Shown: positions 5,742 through 23,695 of the stretch, in pieces
Layout: every line of letters starts with the position of its first letter
Numbering within the stretch: the first letter of the stretch is position 1
Origin: a virus
Virus record (IMG/VR): IMGVR_UViG_3300046680_000668
Span: 1 to 23,695 of that record
Direction: 5' to 3' (one strand)
DNA: 23,695 nt
Position numbers and translations under genes: made by a program
Notes under the pieces: model-generated
Seen by the model: the letters and a program-made list of their open reading frames with translations, nothing else
What the model was told of the DNA's origin: nothing
The model's database searches: none

Positions 5742-6076
5742 CACGCCGCTCCCTGATCGTGGTGCGGCAGAAACCAGAGCACGGACCGGGTTTTGAGGCT
5801 TCTGGCGGCCTCCGCTTGGCTCTCTGTGCTGCTGTCGTCTTGCGCCCGAGGTGGCTGTAGCGAGGCGCTTTCTCTGGACATCAGGCGGATAAGGATGATT
5901 GCGAAGACGCAAACGCCGCCCCAGCCCACGACGGGGTTAGTCTCAATGTTCACCAGCAGCAGGACCGCCAGCCCGAGCACGCTGAGCACCGGTAAGATTA
6001 AAACCAACAATCGGAGCAGCGTCAGGATAAGTCCGGCGACTATCAAGAAGACGAAAAAGCCGATGATGATGCTCAC
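5741..6076 (-). CDS. Membrane protein with C-terminal LPHHDQG motif
   Basis: 111 aa from GTG 6076, chosen because AGGGA lies 7 nt upstream and the protein then begins directly with a membrane segment; a longer ORF reaches 6154 without a good ribosome site and would run into the operator of the divergent antitoxin gene. Hydrophobic spans at about residues 2-20, 22-46 and 54-70 predict three membrane passes. A polar Ser/Gln/Ala tail ends in 'LKTRSVLWFLPHHDQGAA'. The membrane protein at 8598-8837 ends in 'LKPQRTVFWWLPHDQGP', so the two share a C-terminal motif although their spans differ. First gene of a coupled minus-strand trio. Function unknown. Confidence 0.65.
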   Translation of the reverse strand: MSIIIGFFVFLIVAGLILTLLRLLVLILPVLSVLGLAVLLLVNIETNPVVGWGGVCVFAIILIRLMSRESASLQPPRAQDDSSTESQAEAARSLKTRSVLWFLPHHDQGAA

Positions 6077-6444: not shown

Positions 6445-6900
6445 GTGGTCAGGTTTACGCTCGACACCAACATCCTGATCTATGCCTTGGCCAAGCAGGA
6501 CGACGCTAAAGCCAGCACCGCCCGCAAGCTGGTGCAGCGAGCCCGCGCGCAGGATTGCGTCATCACCATGCAGGCGCTCGGCGAGCTGTTTCACGTGCTC
6601 ACCGGCAGATTACGCAGGCCCGTGGCTGAGGCCGTCGCCGCAGTCGAGGAATGGCGCGCTGCCGTGCCCGTGGTAACGGCCGATGAAGCCTGCATGGTCG
6701 ACGCCATGGATGCGGTCGTGGGGCATAGCTTTTCGTTCTGGGACGCCATGCTGTGGATGACCGCCAAGCGCGCGGGCTGTCAGCTGTTGCTCAGCGAAGA
6801 CGGCGACGACGGGCGCTCGCTGCGCGGGGTGACGCTGGTCAACCCATTCGCCTCACCCCGCGCGCCGCTGCTGTTGCAAGCGCTCGGAGGCAGGCGATAG
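6445..6900 (+). CDS. vapC: PIN-domain toxin (VapC-like ribonuclease)
   Basis: 151 aa from GTG. PIN-domain acidic residues are visible: Asp7 in 'FTLDTNILIYAL', Glu47 in 'MQALGELFHVLTG', Asp100 in 'FSFWDAMLW', and Glu118/Asp119 in 'LLLSEDGDDG'. This is the Mg-dependent RNase core of VapC toxins, which typically cut tRNA or rRNA. It is paired with a Phd/YefM-type antitoxin. The protein looks full length and the active-site residues are intact. It is followed after 84 nt by tnpB, so the pair may have travelled with that transposon or be independent phage cargo. Confidence 0.9.
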   Translation: MVRFTLDTNILIYALAKQDDAKASTARKLVQRARAQDCVITMQALGELFHVLTGRLRRPVAEAVAAVEEWRAAVPVVTADEACMVDAMDAVVGHSFSFWDAMLWMTAKRAGCQLLLSEDGDDGRSLRGVTLVNPFASPRAPLLLQALGGRR

Positions 6901-6984: not shown

Positions 6985-8136
6985 ATGCTGCTCGCCCAAC
7001 GAATTGCGCTCTACCCGACGCCCGCGCAGGCCGATTACCTGGACCGTGCCTGCGGCTCGCGGCGGCATTGCTACAATCAACTGCTGGCACACTTCTGCCA
7101 GCCGGGGGTGAAATGGTCCAAGGCAGCAGCGTTCATTCACTACACCAAGGTCATCAAGCCGCAATTCCCCTGGTATGGCGAGGTGTCCTCGCGCGCCACC
7201 CGCAACGCCATCGATGACCTGGACAACGCCTTCAGGCATTTCTTCCGGCGCTGCAAGCTGGGCCAGAAGCCCGGATTTCCCCGGTTTCACAAGAAAGGCG
7301 TGAATGACGGCTTTGCCATGCGTGAGAAGCCGAAGTTCAATATCGATGGCAGGACGCTGCGCATCGAGAAGTTGCCCACCCGCATCAAGCTGCGCCAGTT
7401 GCCGCGCTTCACCGGCACCCACTGTCAGGTCACCGTCGCGAAGCAGGCCGGCAAGTTCTACGCGTCCATCCTGACCGACACGCAGGACTATGACCGCAAG
7501 GACGATGACCGTGAGCCTGCGGTCGGGGTGGACTTTGGTATCACCTCGCTGGCCACGCTCTCGACCGGCGAAGTGGTGCCCGCCAACCAAAAGCTGAAGG
7601 CCAATCTAAGGAGATTGAAAAGGAAGCAACGCAGACTGTCCCGCAAACAGCGCGGGTCGAACCGGCGGGCGAAAGCCAAGCTCGTCGTAGCAAAGCTGCA
7701 CAAGCGGATTGCCGATCAGCGCACGGCGGTCCTGCACGAAGTGTCGGACAAACTGACCGAGCGCTTCGATACCATCGTCATCGAGGACTTGGCCGTGAAG
7801 AACATGGTCAGGAATCGCTCGCTGTCACGGGCGATTTCGGATGCCGGGTTCGGCACGCTGCGACGGATGATCGAATACAAAGCCGCATTGCGCGGCTGCG
7901 AGGTGGTCATCGCGCCAAGGTTCTACCCTTCGTCCAAGACCTGCTCCGACTGTGGTGTCGTCAAGGACGCCCTGTCGCTGGGGGAGCGCGTCTACCGGTG
8001 TGAGGACTGCGGCCACGAGCAGGACCGCGATCTGAATGCCGCGCTGAACCTGCTACGACTGCACACGTTTCGGGCGGTCGCTAAACGGACACAAGAGCCG
8101 CGTCAGACGGTGGGCTTGCCCGCCGCAGCGGCGTAG
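6985..8136 (+). CDS. tnpB: TnpB-family RNA-guided nuclease (OrfB, IS200/IS605 or IS1341 type)
   Basis: 383 aa, full length for TnpB. The N-terminus has the 'RIALYPTPAQADYL' start and 'CGSRRHCYNQLL' helix typical of OrfB. RuvC-like catalytic residues: Asp183 in 'VGVDFGITSLATLS', Glu267 in 'TIVIEDLAVKNM', and Asp in 'DRDLNAALNLL' (347/349). The zinc finger between them is intact (Cys320, Cys323, Cys339, Cys342). TnpB uses an RNA from the transposon's right end to cut DNA next to a short TAM motif and aids transposon retention. No tnpA is present, so this is a solitary TnpB. The last residues are shorter than in many relatives. The guide RNA would be expected over the 3' end of the gene and the following about 100 nt. 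Confidence 0.93.
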   Translation: MLLAQRIALYPTPAQADYLDRACGSRRHCYNQLLAHFCQPGVKWSKAAAFIHYTKVIKPQFPWYGEVSSRATRNAIDDLDNAFRHFFRRCKLGQKPGFPRFHKKGVNDGFAMREKPKFNIDGRTLRIEKLPTRIKLRQLPRFTGTHCQVTVAKQAGKFYASILTDTQDYDRKDDDREPAVGVDFGITSLATLSTGEVVPANQKLKANLRRLKRKQRRLSRKQRGSNRRAKAKLVVAKLHKRIADQRTAVLHEVSDKLTERFDTIVIEDLAVKNMVRNRSLSRAISDAGFGTLRRMIEYKAALRGCEVVIAPRFYPSSKTCSDCGVVKDALSLGERVYRCEDCGHEQDRDLNAALNLLRLHTFRAVAKRTQEPRQTVGLPAAAA

Positions 8137-9958: not shown

Positions 9959-10168
9959 GTGGGTCACATGGGACGCCGGCCACAGGGGTTCACCGCGAAG
10001 ACGGTGATGCTACCGCCAGAGCTATGGGACCGCCTGGAGCGGTTCATGGTCGAGGAGCATCTGTCCAGCGTGGCAGAGGCGCTGCGCGTGTTGCTTTGGC
10101 GCGCACTTCCCGATGAGTCACCCAAGTCTGTGCCGGCACCGAGGAAGGGCAGGCGCAGTGGCGAGTAG
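9959..10168 (+). CDS. Ribbon-helix-helix regulator
   Basis: 69 aa from GTG 9959, chosen because GGAGGAG lies about 9 nt upstream; ATG 9968 is the alternative. 'FTAKTVMLPPELWDRLERF' then 'SSVAEALRVLLWRAL' has the strand-helix-helix layout of small RHH DNA-binding proteins. A basic tail follows. An inverted repeat 28 nt upstream is a candidate operator. The next gene carries a related C-terminal region with a zinc-like domain added in front, so the two look like relatives with different heads. The coding regions overlap by 11 nt. Confidence 0.65.
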   Translation: MGHMGRRPQGFTAKTVMLPPELWDRLERFMVEEHLSSVAEALRVLLWRALPDESPKSVPAPRKGRRSGE

Positions 10169-10550
10169 ATCAGTGCGAAACGCGGTAGCCAAGGCTATCC
10201 GCACTAGCGAGCTAGTTCGCCAACCGTGCGAGAAATGCGGCGCCAAGGCCGATGCGCATCATGATGACTATGACCGGCCGCTCGACGTGATCTGGCTTTG
10301 CCGCAAGCACCATCAACTCCGACACAAAGAACTAGGATGGGGAGTTAGCCACGGGCCATCAAAGTTTGTGTTCAAGGTCCCTATGGTTTTTCCCGAGGAG
10401 CAATGGCGGGCGATCGAGGCGTACCAGCGCAATCGGCGGATCAGCACGCTGACGGAAAGCATCCGCGCCCTGATCTGGCGGGGGCTGGAAGCCGAGGGCG
10501 CTGCTCCACCACCTGCACCAGCACCACGCCAGAAGCGCGGCTCCCAGTGA
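10158..10550 (+). CDS. HNH/zinc-like domain fused to an RHH-like domain
   Basis: 130 aa from GTG 10158 (AGG 4 nt upstream, overlapping the previous stop). Residues 24-56 hold 'CEKCGAKADAHHDDYDRPLD' and 'VIWLCRKHHQLRHKE': Cys24, Cys27, His34-His35, Cys48, His51-His52, His56, an HNH-like zinc fold of the type seen in small phage proteins. From about residue 74, 'VPMVFPEEQWRAIEAYQ' and 'STLTESIRALIWRGLEAEG' parallels the RHH core of the preceding protein. The C-terminus is Pro/Ala/Lys-rich. I infer a DNA-binding protein, perhaps a site-specific nickase or a zinc-stabilised regulator; catalysis is unproven. The recombinase operon at 14812-15731 has the same head-swap theme. Confidence 0.65.
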   Translation: MASRSVRNAVAKAIRTSELVRQPCEKCGAKADAHHDDYDRPLDVIWLCRKHHQLRHKELGWGVSHGPSKFVFKVPMVFPEEQWRAIEAYQRNRRISTLTESIRALIWRGLEAEGAAPPPAPAPRQKRGSQ

Positions 10551-13388: not shown

Positions 13389-13953
13389 GTCGCGCCAGTA
13401 GGCCCCTCGCCTTCCGGGCGTCGACGTCGCGCTGCAACGCCTCGGCTCGCTCACGCGCCGCCTTGGCCTCGGCCTGGGTGCGATCGAGCACCGCCTGACG
13501 CTCAGCAAGCTCGACCTGAAGCGCGGTGGCGTGGGAGCGCAACTCGCGGAGGTCGGACTTAGCATCGGCGATCGCAGCCTCAGCGCGCTCTGCCCTGTCC
13601 GTCAGTCCAGCGATCTGTCCATGGAGCGCTCCGACTTCGCCAGCATGGGCGGCTTCCACCGCGGCAAGTGCAGCGGCGAAGTCCGTCCGATCGCTGGACA
13701 GGTCCATGTCCCGGTCCTGCTGCTCCATAGGCAGGTCCATGGATTGATACCGTCGCGACAGCCACTCGGGCGGCACCAGCACGCGGACCACGCGGCGATT
13801 GTCACGCTGCCGGCGCCACTTCTTGCGGGTGGCCAATCGGATCGCCGACGGCTTGTCGATGCCGCGCACGGCCGCCAGTTCCGGGTAGGTGAGCCAGCGC
13901 CCCTCGTCCTGATCCATGGACCGGTCGGCTGACTGCTCGCTGGATTGGTCCAT
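13363..13953 (-). CDS. HTH plus coiled-coil protein
   Basis: 196 aa from ATG 13953 (a longer ORF reaches 14049 with a Cys-rich, unlikely N-terminus). Residues about 20-55 ('RWLTYPELAAVRGIDKPSAI', 'RLATRKKWRRQRDNRRVVRV') form a helix-turn-helix like that of a common alphaproteobacterial phage/plasmid family whose members read 'W-R-R-Q-x-x-N ... V-x-V-P'. From about residue 85 it is a long coiled coil (alternating Ala/Glu/Arg, 'AERAEAAIADAKSDLRELR'), ending in a basic 'LLARLRAVVRRE'. It lies divergent from the recombinase operon with a promoter and palindrome between, and convergent (26-nt overlap) with the DUF2335-like gene. A KfrA-like partition or regulatory role is possible but unproven. 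Confidence 0.68.
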   Translation of the reverse strand: MDQSSEQSADRSMDQDEGRWLTYPELAAVRGIDKPSAIRLATRKKWRRQRDNRRVVRVLVPPEWLSRRYQSMDLPMEQQDRDMDLSSDRTDFAAALAAVEAAHAGEVGALHGQIAGLTDRAERAEAAIADAKSDLRELRSHATALQVELAERQAVLDRTQAEAKAARERAEALQRDVDARKARGLLARLRAVVRRE

Positions 13954-14075
13954 GGATCGTCGCCCGTCGCAGTGACGGGGCACCCAGTTACCGGCCGCCT
14001 CGTGACCGCCGCAAGAGCCACCGCAGCAAATCTGCACAGCGGGGCACACGGTGGAACAGGCGGGGACGAATTAGC

Positions 14076-14103
14076 TTGTATATAAACCATACGAGCGTAT
14101 GAT
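14076..14103 (+). promoter_or_regulatory. Sigma70-like promoter for the recombinase operon
   Basis: TTGTAT, 16 nt, then TATGAT, in an A/T-rich island 30 nt before the recombinase ATG. A palindrome (14088-14101, arms CATACG and CGTATG) overlaps the -10 box, as expected of an operator for repression or autoregulation. Confidence 0.6.
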
Positions 14104-14134
14104 GAGTGCATATTCACCGACAGGCACCCCATCA

Positions 14135-14812
14135 ATGCGCCAGATCGTCAGCTACATCCGGGTCTCGACCCAGCAGCAGGGCAAGTCCGGCTTGGGCATC
14201 GAAGCCCAGCGCGAGGCCGTCGCCCGCTTCGCCGAGGCGGAAGGGCTCGAGCTGACCAGCGAGTTCGTGGAGGTCGAGACCGGCAAAGGCTGTGACGCGC
14301 TGGAGCGGCGGCCGCAGCTCGCCGCGGCGCTGGCCCAGGCCCGCAAGGCGAAGTGCCCGGTCGTGGTGGCGAAGCTCGATCGGCTGTCACGCGACGTGGC
14401 GTTCATCTCGGGCCTGATGGGAAAGCGCGTGCCGTTCGTCGTCGCCGAGCTGGGCGCCGACTGTGATCCGTTCATGCTGCACATCTACGCCGCGTTGGCC
14501 GAGAAGGAGCGGCGCCTGATCAGCCAGCGCACCCGTGCCGCGCTCGCGGCCAAGAAGGCGCAGGGCGCGCTGCTGGGCAACCGCACCAACCTGCCCGACG
14601 CCACCGCGCTGGCCGCCGCAAGCAACCGCCGCATCGGTGCCAGCTTCGCCGCCAATGTCGTGCCCGTCATGCAGCAGATCCGGGCGGCCGGCGCGACCAG
14701 CTACCACGCCATTGCCGACGCCCTGAACGCCCGCGGCATTCACACCGCCCGCGGTGGCGAGTGGCACGCCACCACCGTGCGCAACATTCTGCTGCGGACC
14801 GAGGTGGCGTGA
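14135..14812 (+). CDS. Serine recombinase (resolvase/invertase)
   Basis: 225 aa from ATG 14135. The catalytic domain is intact: '[20 protein letters not shown]' with Ser11 as nucleophile and Arg9, '[15 protein letters not shown]' with Arg83 and Arg86, and the long helix '[20 protein letters not shown]'. Residues 133-225 form a linker ('[11 protein letters not shown]') and a helix-turn-helix-like end ('[20 protein letters not shown]', '[12 protein letters not shown]') typical of small recombinases. It should cut and rejoin DNA at short paired sites through a covalent Ser-DNA link. Remarkably, residues from about 133 on are repeated in the next two genes behind a different head. The stop overlaps the next ATG (TGATG). 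Confidence 0.93.
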
Positions 14813-15279
14813 TGGCATATGGCCCCAAACGCTGCGCAAGCTGCGGATCCTCGACAGAGGTGCAGATACATCACCTTTACTCGCGCAAGCAGGGCTGTCC
14901 TGACAGCCTGACTATTTGGCTTTGTCTTGTGTGCCACGACGACGCGCATCAGCGTGTTCGCAAGCCGTCCGATCTCAGCCACAGCGCCCTGACCCGTGCG
15001 GCGCTGGCGCGCAAGAAGGCCGAGGGGGCGTTGCTGGGCAACCGGACCAACCTGCCAATGGCGCAGGCGAAGGCGGCGGCAGTAAGCCGGGCCAAAGGCG
15101 AGGCATTCGCCAAGAATGTGCTTCCCCTGGTCCGCCAGGCACAGGAGCGCGGGGCCCAGACCTACCGGGCGATCGCCGAGGAGCTCAATCAGCGGGGGGT
15201 GCGGACGGCACGTGGCGGCACGTGGCACGCGACCACGGTGCGCAACATGATGTTACGGCCAGACGGCGGGGTGGTGTGA
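14812..15279 (+). CDS. HNH/zinc-like head fused to recombinase C-terminal domain, copy 1
   Basis: 155 aa; ATG overlaps the recombinase stop. Residues 8-46 are 'CASCGSSTEVQIHHLYSRKQ' and 'GCPDSLTIWLCLVCHDDAHQ': Cys8, Cys11, His20-His21, Cys38, Cys41-His42, His46, the layout of an HNH fold. The central Asn of classical HNH nucleases is Leu here, so catalysis is doubtful. From about residue 61, '[20 protein letters not shown]' to '[20 protein letters not shown]' aligns without gaps to residues 133-221 of the recombinase, at more than half identity by eye. The protein thus keeps the recombinase DNA-binding end but has lost the serine catalytic domain. It may bind the same sites as an accessory, directionality or blocking factor. 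The stop overlaps the next ATG. Confidence 0.8.
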   Translation: MAYGPKRCASCGSSTEVQIHHLYSRKQGCPDSLTIWLCLVCHDDAHQRVRKPSDLSHSALTRAALARKKAEGALLGNRTNLPMAQAKAAAVSRAKGEAFAKNVLPLVRQAQERGAQTYRAIAEELNQRGVRTARGGTWHATTVRNMMLRPDGGVV

Positions 15280-15731
15280 TGGCGTATGGCCCCAAGCGCT
15301 GCGGTTGCTGCGGCGAGCTCAACGGTGTCGAGGCGCATCACCTCTATTCCACCCGCGATGGCTGTCCTGACGATCTGACGGTCTGGCTCTGTCACGACTG
15401 CCATCGGCGGGCACATGAATTGAAGCGTCGGGTCAACGTCAGCGAGTGCACGCGGGTGGCGTTGGCCGCGAAGAAGGCGCAGGGCGCGAAACTAGGCAAC
15501 CCCACCAACCTCGCGGCGGCCGGTGCGAAAGGACGACGGGTGGGGCGCGATGCGGCGGACCGGTTCGCGCGCAATGTCCGTCCGGTAATCGAGCAGATCA
15601 GGGCGAGCGGTGCCGCAAGCCTGCGAGCGATCGCGGCCGAGCTGAACGCGCGTGGCGTCGCCACCGCACGCGGAGGTGTCTGGGAAGCCCAGACGGTGAG
15701 GAACCTGTTGCTACGGACCGAGGCAGCGTAG
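15279..15731 (+). CDS. HNH/zinc-like head fused to recombinase C-terminal domain, copy 2
   Basis: 150 aa; ATG overlaps the previous stop (TGATG). The first 46 residues have every zinc-ligand candidate at the same position as copy 1 (Cys8, Cys11, His20-21, Cys38, Cys41-His42, His46) and the shared start 'MAYGPKRC'; the HNH Asn position is again Leu. The rest ('[20 protein letters not shown]' to 'GVATARGGVWEAQTVRNLLL') matches the recombinase C-terminal region. The two copies are diverged throughout, so the duplication is old and both appear maintained. Differences in the last helices ('WHATTVRN' against 'WEAQTVRN') might give each protein a different site preference. Third gene of the operon. 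Confidence 0.8.
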   Translation: MAYGPKRCGCCGELNGVEAHHLYSTRDGCPDDLTVWLCHDCHRRAHELKRRVNVSECTRVALAAKKAQGAKLGNPTNLAAAGAKGRRVGRDAADRFARNVRPVIEQIRASGAASLRAIAAELNARGVATARGGVWEAQTVRNLLLRTEAA

Positions 15732-15747
15732 CGAGGGCCCCGGCACA

Positions 15748-16131
15748 ATGCCGAGGAAACCGGGGCCGCCTCGCCGCAATCAATTTTTCCCGCCCGCGCC
15801 GGACAAGTCCGAGCTAGAGGCCTGGCTACGAGATTTTTTTGACCGTGCGAAGTTGTGGCTGGGGGAGAAGGATGCCCGACTCCTTTTTGCCAAGGTTCTC
15901 GAACGGCCAGCCGTTCGACCACCAGGATCAACCACCCCAGAACAGGACGATGAGTTGCTTGGAGAGATCCGGCGTCACCATGGGTCCATGCTGTCGCTGG
16001 CTCGTCGGCTTCTCCAAGAACACCCTGGCCGATACGGGCAGCCATCCGAAGATACCTTCGCGACCAGGCTGCGGCGGCTGAAAAAAGAATATGAACTCCA
16101 GATCGAAACCCTAATGAGGCCGGACATTTAG
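15748..16131 (+). CDS. Hypothetical helical protein
   Basis: 127 aa from ATG 15748, 16 nt after the recombinase-like trio, with GAGGG upstream. Basic Pro-rich N-terminus, then 'DKSELEAWLRDFFDRAKLWL' and 'EKDARLLFAKVLERP', and a C-terminal pair of helices ('SMLSLARRLLQEHPGRYG', 'FATRLRRLKKEYELQIETLM'). The last part could bind DNA but I recognise no family. Codon use and direction match the operon before it. Confidence 0.6.
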   Translation: MPRKPGPPRRNQFFPPAPDKSELEAWLRDFFDRAKLWLGEKDARLLFAKVLERPAVRPPGSTTPEQDDELLGEIRRHHGSMLSLARRLLQEHPGRYGQPSEDTFATRLRRLKKEYELQIETLMRPDI

Positions 16132-23250: not shown

Positions 23251-23695
23251 CACAGCACTTACGGTGCCGATTGAGACATCAACGCGCTTCAGTTGGGCTT
23301 CGGCGCAGCTCCAGACTCGTCTGGCGTCCCAGCTGCCCGGGTAGCCAGCAGCAGCGCGCCTTCGAGAGCTGCCTTCAGTGAGTGCGCCGCGGGAATGTTC
23401 ATCCGGAGGTGCGCGACAATAACGCGGTCGTTGGCCACCCCGCCAAAGGGCATGGGCACGTCGCGTGATGCCTCCAGCGTAACGCGGATCATGCCGTTCA
23501 GGTGCCCAATCGCGGAGGCCTGCTCGAAGTAGAGGAACGGGGCGTGCGCACTGGCAAGTGCAGAGATGCCGCCTTCGAGGCTCGGTATTGTCTCGACGAC
23601 GACTTGCGGCTTCGTGCGGGACTCGTCGGTCATGGCATCCTCCTGTTTCGCGTCCTATTAGCGCAACGGCACGGACACGGAATATCTGCGATTTC
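23251..23695. repeat. Diverged copy of 34-475
   Basis: Homology with 34-475 begins at CACAGCACTTACGG and runs to the last base of the window. It includes a 3-nt insertion and scattered substitutions in the gene, but the final 99 nt (23597-23695) are identical to 377-475. Confidence 0.9.
23289..23633 (-). CDS. Hypothetical phage protein, copy 2 of a duplicated gene
   Basis: 114 aa, homologous along its whole length to the gene at 72-413. It has one extra Val ('QVVVETIPSLEGG') and substitutions such as 'GHLNGMIRV' for 'GCLTGIIRV', 'MPFGG' for 'MPQDG' and 'LEGALLLA' for 'LDAALLLA'. Start and AGGAGG ribosome site are identical. Many of the differences between copies are at third codon positions, so both look functional. 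It follows the non-coding stretch after terL on the opposite strand. Function unknown. Confidence 0.75.
   Translation of the reverse strand: MTDESRTKPQVVVETIPSLEGGISALASAHAPFLYFEQASAIGHLNGMIRVTLEASRDVPMPFGGVANDRVIVAHLRMNIPAAHSLKAALEGALLLATRAAGTPDESGAAPKPN

Follow-up and report, generated by a model that had tools for sequence, protein, structure and literature searches.

The window analyzed here is a stretch of DNA of 23,695 nucleotides, a virus record from IMG/VR. Its ends (positions 34 to 475 and 23251 to 23695) are 89% alike, and a sister contig from another sample, IMGVR_UViG_3300046517_001564, reads across the window end into the window start, so the record is probably a genome of about 23.2 kb that closes into a circle and has redundant ends. 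Three overlapping genes on its plus strand, designated R1, R2, and R3, are the subject of this analysis.

R1 (positions 14135 to 14812) encodes a small serine recombinase of 225 amino acids, with an alternative in-frame ATG start at 14099. Its catalytic domain, approximately residues 1 to 130, is a Resolvase domain (Pfam PF00239, 1.1e-25; 90.8 bits, with a curated cut-off of 23.3), the translation contains the catalytic Ser and Arg motifs, and the sequence matches the structures of Gin invertase at 1.5e-7. The tail, approximately residues 131 to 225 (14525 to 14809), consists of the end of helix E, a minor-groove arm, a spacer helix, and an HTH, and is covered by PF07508 (6.6e-6).

R2 (14812 to 15279; 155 amino acids) and R3 (15279 to 15731; 150 amino acids) are each joined to the preceding gene by a TGATG overlap (14810 to 14814 and 15277 to 15281, respectively). 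Both combine an HNH-like head (residues 1 to 56 of R2, positions 14812 to 14979, and residues 1 to 54 of R3, positions 15279 to 15440) with a recombinase tail (approximately residues 60 to 155 and 57 to 150). The Pfam scan shows no PF00239 catalytic domain in either protein; PF07508 scores 25.5 bits in R2 and 24.1 bits in R3, the cut-off being 21.1. Residues 130 to 221 of R1 align with R2 and R3 without gaps, with tail identities of 62% (R1-R2), 63% (R1-R3), and 55% (R2-R3), and a search of the window with R3 as the query retrieves the R1 tail at 1e-30 and R2 at 9e-51. As judged from these alignments, the likeness of the three tails is far beyond chance. The preliminary description of this DNA, which saw here a recombinase followed by two TGATG-coupled, head-swapped paralogs, is thus borne out. 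It had also considered that the tail might be a generic domain of unrelated proteins; in the proteins examined, it is instead the DNA-binding tail that is usual for recombinases of this class.

R1, R2, and R3 show zero differences from their counterparts in the sister contig, the two contigs being 99.4% identical over a shared 10 kb. Eight base differences between the two samples are clustered at 14010 to 14060, just upstream of R1, and the listed downstream genes are identical. A scan of positions 13950 to 15900 for sigma-70 promoters found none, which leaves the earlier claim of an operon with its own promoter without support, and no terminator pattern was found near the R1-R3 operon. Elsewhere in the window are a TnpB-like gene of the IS605 family (6985 to 8136; PF01385 and PF07282) and a separate HNH endonuclease-like gene (10113 to 10547; PHROG 2340, 9.9e-17).

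Two types of HNH-like heads

The head-tail junction maps, in an alignment of R1 with Gin invertase, to the C-terminal part of helix E of the recombinase family. A junction at this point means that the head replaces the catalytic domain together with the dimer part of helix E and that the minor-groove arm and the HTH are retained.

The R2 head contains the motifs CxxC, HHLY, GCPD, and WLCxxCHxxxH, and the R3 head has the same ligand pattern. As noted in the preliminary description, all zinc-ligand candidates (C8, C11, H20, H21, C38, C41, H42, and H46) are found at identical positions in both heads, and the Asn of the HNH motif is Leu in both. The predicted fold is beta-beta-alpha with a CxxC...CxxC zinc site, and the Cys pairs are intact in R2 and R3. 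The His-Asn-His triad is incomplete, with Asn replaced by Leu not just here but in every type-A head found. The R2 head alone scores 19.9 bits against the HNH family (PF01844), below the cut-off of 21.4.

Structure prediction, suggested earlier as a check on this layout, agrees with it. The AlphaFold2 model of R3 (pLDDT 89.7) has a beta-beta-alpha head (predicted elements E17-21, E34-38, and H39-51), a long helix, and a terminal HTH. The matches of the modeled head include HNH enzymes, of which 4h9d scores highest (Z of 4.3), along with T4 endonuclease VII, GVE2 HNH, McrA, and Cap5; the matches of the modeled tail include serine integrases, among them 9y66 (Z of 4.5 over 77 residues) and Bxb1. 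All these matches of the R3 model are of middling Z.

The heads fall into two lineages, type A (HHLYxxxxGCPD, with Asn changed to Leu), to which both window heads belong, and type B (HHLVTR...TNLITLC, with the full HNH). Type-B heads are found in two of the loci described below, L116 and L142, where they score 34.6 and 34.0 bits against Pfam HNH (cut-off, 21.4) and have the Asn in the TNLITLC motif. The type-B model most resembles HNH domains from IscB, McrA, and a Gme nicking endonuclease (Z of 5.1 to 5.5). An HNH domain followed by a C-terminal DNA-binding region is thus present in type B, whereas in the type-A proteins of the window the head is incomplete. Identity between the L116 and L142 type-B heads is 67%, compared with 35 to 44% between type A and type B within one locus. 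Between loci, the heads are constrained, with pN/pS values of 0.23 to 0.50 at partly saturated synonymous sites.

Recurrence of the head genes and histories of their tails

L116, a contig of 23,387 bases, contains a recombinase gene, a type-A fusion that overlaps it by ATGA, and then a type-B fusion. In the examined parts of this contig, the other window proteins have no match at 1e-6, which indicates that the cassette recurs in otherwise unrelated phages. In L142, retrieved with a DNA pattern built from the head alone, the order is a recombinase of another subclass, a type-B fusion with a 4-base overlap, and a type-A fusion, and the tail of the adjacent recombinase differs from those of the fusions. 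In L052, from a bacterial genome and also recovered using heads only, the recombinase gene is coupled through TAATG to a bare head of type A.

L153, retrieved by a head-only profile, encodes a resolvase-type recombinase and, starting 1 base past its stop, a protein that joins an HNH-like head to an HTH_7 tail. HTH_7 scores 36.9 bits in this tail and 28.0 bits in that of the recombinase (cut-off, 23.8), and the two tails align with a score of 99, compared with a maximum of 48 for shuffled sequences. L140 has a fusion and no recombinase in its 6.8 kb.

Of the six independent loci found, five therefore have a head gene immediately after a serine recombinase gene (the window, L116, L142, L052, and L153, but not L140), and the combination of head genes and recombinase is a unit that is not private to the window phage, in keeping with the earlier view that these genes form one system. 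As to how regularly they are neighbors in related genomes, the picture is mixed. The three-gene layout is rare: among 80 recombinase loci in viral contigs, it is found only in the near-identical sister of the window and in a single further contig, that of L116 (listed twice), and the mismatched recombinase tail of L142 and the missing recombinase of L140 are further weak points. Searches of phage and plasmid records with R3 found nothing, queries from L140 and L142 returned only recombinase tails or unrelated HNH genes, and head profiles run at four taxonomic levels (class, 385 genomes; order, 397; one family, 210; phylum, 218) yielded L052 and L153 as the only relevant loci. Three proteins that seemed fusion-like by coverage, H1 (Roseomonas plasmid), H34 (Methylobacterium), and H63 (Komagataeibacter), proved to be recombinase derived and to have no head, and L138 and L160 were ruled out as relatives, being unrelated HNH-like genes. 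A tail-only, recombinase-like HTH is encoded at 5894 to 6148 of L150, a Bradyrhizobium plasmid, with a full recombinase nearby.

The tails have a different history from the heads. Those of the three L116 proteins (recombinase, type A, and type B) are 57 to 74% identical, and the type-B tails of L116 and L142 are only 39% identical. In a tree of 71 tails, the 7 fusions do not form one clade (AU P value of 5.6e-9), and seven changes are counted for the seven fusions; R2 pairs with the recombinase of another phage locus, L055, at full support, and the L116 type-B fusion pairs with its own recombinase, although several placements in this tree are weak because the tail is short. With heads in two lineages and fusion tails scattered, the heads look inherited and the tails look re-acquired from recombinases.

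One of these exchanges can be followed at the DNA level. Comparison of the R2 tail with the L055 recombinase tail gives 88.9% DNA identity, which starts at the head-tail junction, with a dS of 0.48, a dN of 0.05, and a pN/pS of 0.14. The dS between the catalytic domains of R1 and the L055 recombinase is 1.27, so the two recombinases had already diverged when a tail was transferred between a fusion gene and a recombinase gene. By these values, the tail has been constrained since the transfer, for this one pair and with the constraint possibly in either gene.

In L116, the recombinase and type-B fusion genes share an exact run of 29 bases close to their 3' ends, which we read as gene conversion. 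Past the last fusion, at 1743 to 1790, the locus also carries a vestigial third head (MTHGPPICAACGARA), matching at 36 of 42 bases, a relic of a longer tandem array. In L055, the sequence past the recombinase stop (6676 to 6685; ATGGCATA) has the first 8 bases of a window head gene, with unrelated sequence beyond. Both remnants fit a process of tandem duplication and loss of tail-head units.

Candidate crossover site and possible roles of R2 and R3

A 28-bp candidate crossover site is found on the plus strand at 14081 to 14108, 26 bp upstream of R1. It consists of inverted half-sites around a 2-bp center, AG (14094 to 14095), with the core CATACG-AG-CGTATG at 14088 to 14101. Two half-sites around a 2-bp center are typical of the crossover sites of serine recombinases, such as Gin and resolvase. 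Within the 75 bases that precede related recombinase genes, inverted repeats show a signal for a spacer of 2 (z of 4.9 over 56 non-redundant loci, where z is the excess, in standard deviations, of the mean best arm match over random segments of the same loci); odd spacers give no signal, and spacers of 4 and 0 share the axis with the spacer of 2. The arms of the window site match at 8 of 13 positions, which is not significant alone. The repeat upstream of related recombinases and its 2-bp center make the segment from 14081 to 14108 the likely candidate for the R1 crossover site. The preliminary description had proposed an operator for the three genes; the inverted repeat is real, but a crossover site is its more likely meaning.

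The site is present in a single copy, and no second copy was found in the window or in the sister loci. One copy per locus points to a partner site elsewhere, in the host or on a second molecule; inversion between two sites inside the phage finds no support. Strong 28-bp inverted repeats with a 2-bp center are also found before the genes of several little-studied small serine recombinases, for example in L106 (1349 to 1376), L127 (5945 to 5972), and L058 (5958 to 5985); these are likely crossover sites and deserve a study of their own.

The tail HTHs are 62 to 79% identical within loci and 41 to 52% identical between loci, and the motif of the recognition helix goes by locus, with TVRN in R1, R2, and R3 and T/S-VMR in the three L116 proteins. 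This pattern makes common sites likely. Together with the shared tails and the parallel case of L153, it suggests that R1, R2, and R3 bind the same or related half-sites, as had been proposed from the window alone. The R2 tail matches the recombinase of the L055 phage, which suggests a foreign or second site as the possible target of R2. The mismatched recombinase tail in L142 and the lack of a recombinase in L140 show that coupling to the site of the neighbor is frequent and not absolute.

We tentatively interpret R2, R3, and their relatives as HNH-type proteins aimed at recombinase sites and acting in the manner of free-standing homing-type HNH nickases, a reading to which we give slightly less than even credence. 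R1 would act at the 28-bp site just upstream of its own gene. Because R2 and R3 carry the helix E end, minor-groove arm, and HTH of such recombinases, they would use these to occupy the same or closely related half-sites. The head, placed where a recombinase has its catalytic domain, would then lie over the crossover center, and nicking or cutting at this point is expected of the type-B partners in the sister loci. The window's type-A heads, which have kept the zinc site and the His pair and lost the Asn, might cut poorly, need help, or only block, and this loss leaves blocking or control of R1 a strong rival. The most likely use would be that of phage-borne, recombinase-guided nickases that attack the sites of competing or recombining elements. 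Replacement of the tail from a recombinase gene would re-aim a partner, and tandem duplication would multiply partners.

Several points count against guided nicking. The partners would endanger the intact site in the genome of the very phage that encodes them, the window heads lack the Asn and stay under the Pfam cut-off for HNH, the structure matches are of middling Z, and the crossover site is itself deduced from its sequence. L142 and L140 count against universal guidance by the site of the neighbor.

R2 and R3 could instead be non-cutting regulators that sit on half-sites as monomers or head-linked dimers and serve as competitors of R1, repressors of the operon, or factors of synapsis and direction. 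We regard this as possible but on the unlikely side. It would account for the lost Asn of all type-A heads, the candidate site is where one would expect an R1 repressor to bind, translational coupling sets the ratio of these proteins to R1, and L052 has retained a bare head behind its recombinase. However, type-B heads are true HNH domains above the cut-off, and a competitor needs no HNH head, as stand-alone recombinase tails such as those seen elsewhere would suffice. The family libraries searched gave no match to known directionality factors, which says little either way. Among the roles named in the preliminary description, nothing favors directionality over the others, and the bona fide HNH of type B leans toward cutting or nicking.

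An improbable alternative is that the fusions are bystanders, created when recombinase tails underwent unequal crossing-over with a separate HNH-like gene downstream and kept for a while with no function tied to the recombinase. The relics in L116 and L055 are of the kind expected from such events, L052 would represent the unfused state, and the layout is rare among relatives of the recombinase. Yet open frames, zinc ligands, and start/stop overlaps are intact in several diverged loci, the heads are constrained, and L153 shows this design built on a tail from an unrelated family. Very improbable is a role as RecA- or replication-linked HNH nucleases, with the tail only a loose DNA anchor: the R2 head weakly matches the RecA-dependent nuclease family PF16786 (0.056), and in Ref of phage P1 an HNH domain is accompanied by a distinct DNA-binding segment (PMC4330346), but that match is below the cut-off, the family scan of R3 has none, and the tail is a specific HTH common to recombinases rather than a charged, unstructured arm.

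Returning to guided nicking or blocking, the re-fitted heads are seen with two unrelated tail families. They may represent, with more doubt than confidence on our part, a new class of recombinase partners. Heads of the nuclease type would repeatedly have taken on a DNA-binding domain from a serine recombinase, in most cases the neighboring one, and a coupled protein would thereby come to nick or block the crossover site of that recombinase. If so, phages would re-aim a nuclease or blocker simply by taking over the DNA-binding tail of a site-specific recombinase, serine recombinases would be subject to an extra layer of control or conflict, and recombinase DNA-binding domains that serve foreign heads would exist in nature. 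Tail exchange and site specificity would be directly testable with these small proteins.

Comparison with known systems

Each piece of this arrangement is known, phage proteins with an HNH and a DNA-binding domain among them. To our knowledge, the pairing of such heads with recombinases and their repeated re-tailing with two tail families have no precedent. A literature search, largely without subscription papers, found no described system with this layout, in agreement with the preliminary description.

The directionality factors of serine integrases, such as SPbeta YotN (PDB 9dxd), are likewise small partners encoded by phages with serine recombinases. We know of none with an HNH head or with a copy of the recombinase DNA-binding tail, and no sequence match of R2 or R3 to such factors was seen in the family libraries searched. 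P1 Ref resembles R2 and R3 as a phage HNH-fold protein with a separate DNA-binding part; unlike them, it has no recombinase tail and no coupling to a serine recombinase, and the head match is subthreshold only.

Gin invertase and the Tn3-type resolvases share with this system the Resolvase domain of R1, the arm and HTH of R2 and R3, and a site, here a candidate, of two half-sites with a 2-bp center. They differ in that R2 and R3 have no catalytic serine domain and that the R1 tail is of the PF07508/HTH_62 kind, not HTH_7.

Among the closest systems are phage-encoded, free-standing HNH homing endonucleases, such as those of the T4 mob genes and the I-HmuI type. The T4 mob proteins combine an HNH domain with a distinct C-terminal region, nick DNA, and show high inheritance in mixed infections (PMC2988022). 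In contrast to these enzymes, the fusion genes described here are coupled in translation to a recombinase gene and often occur as a tandem pair, their type-A heads have lost the Asn, and their DNA-binding region is the tail of a serine recombinase, apparently re-acquired from recombinases.
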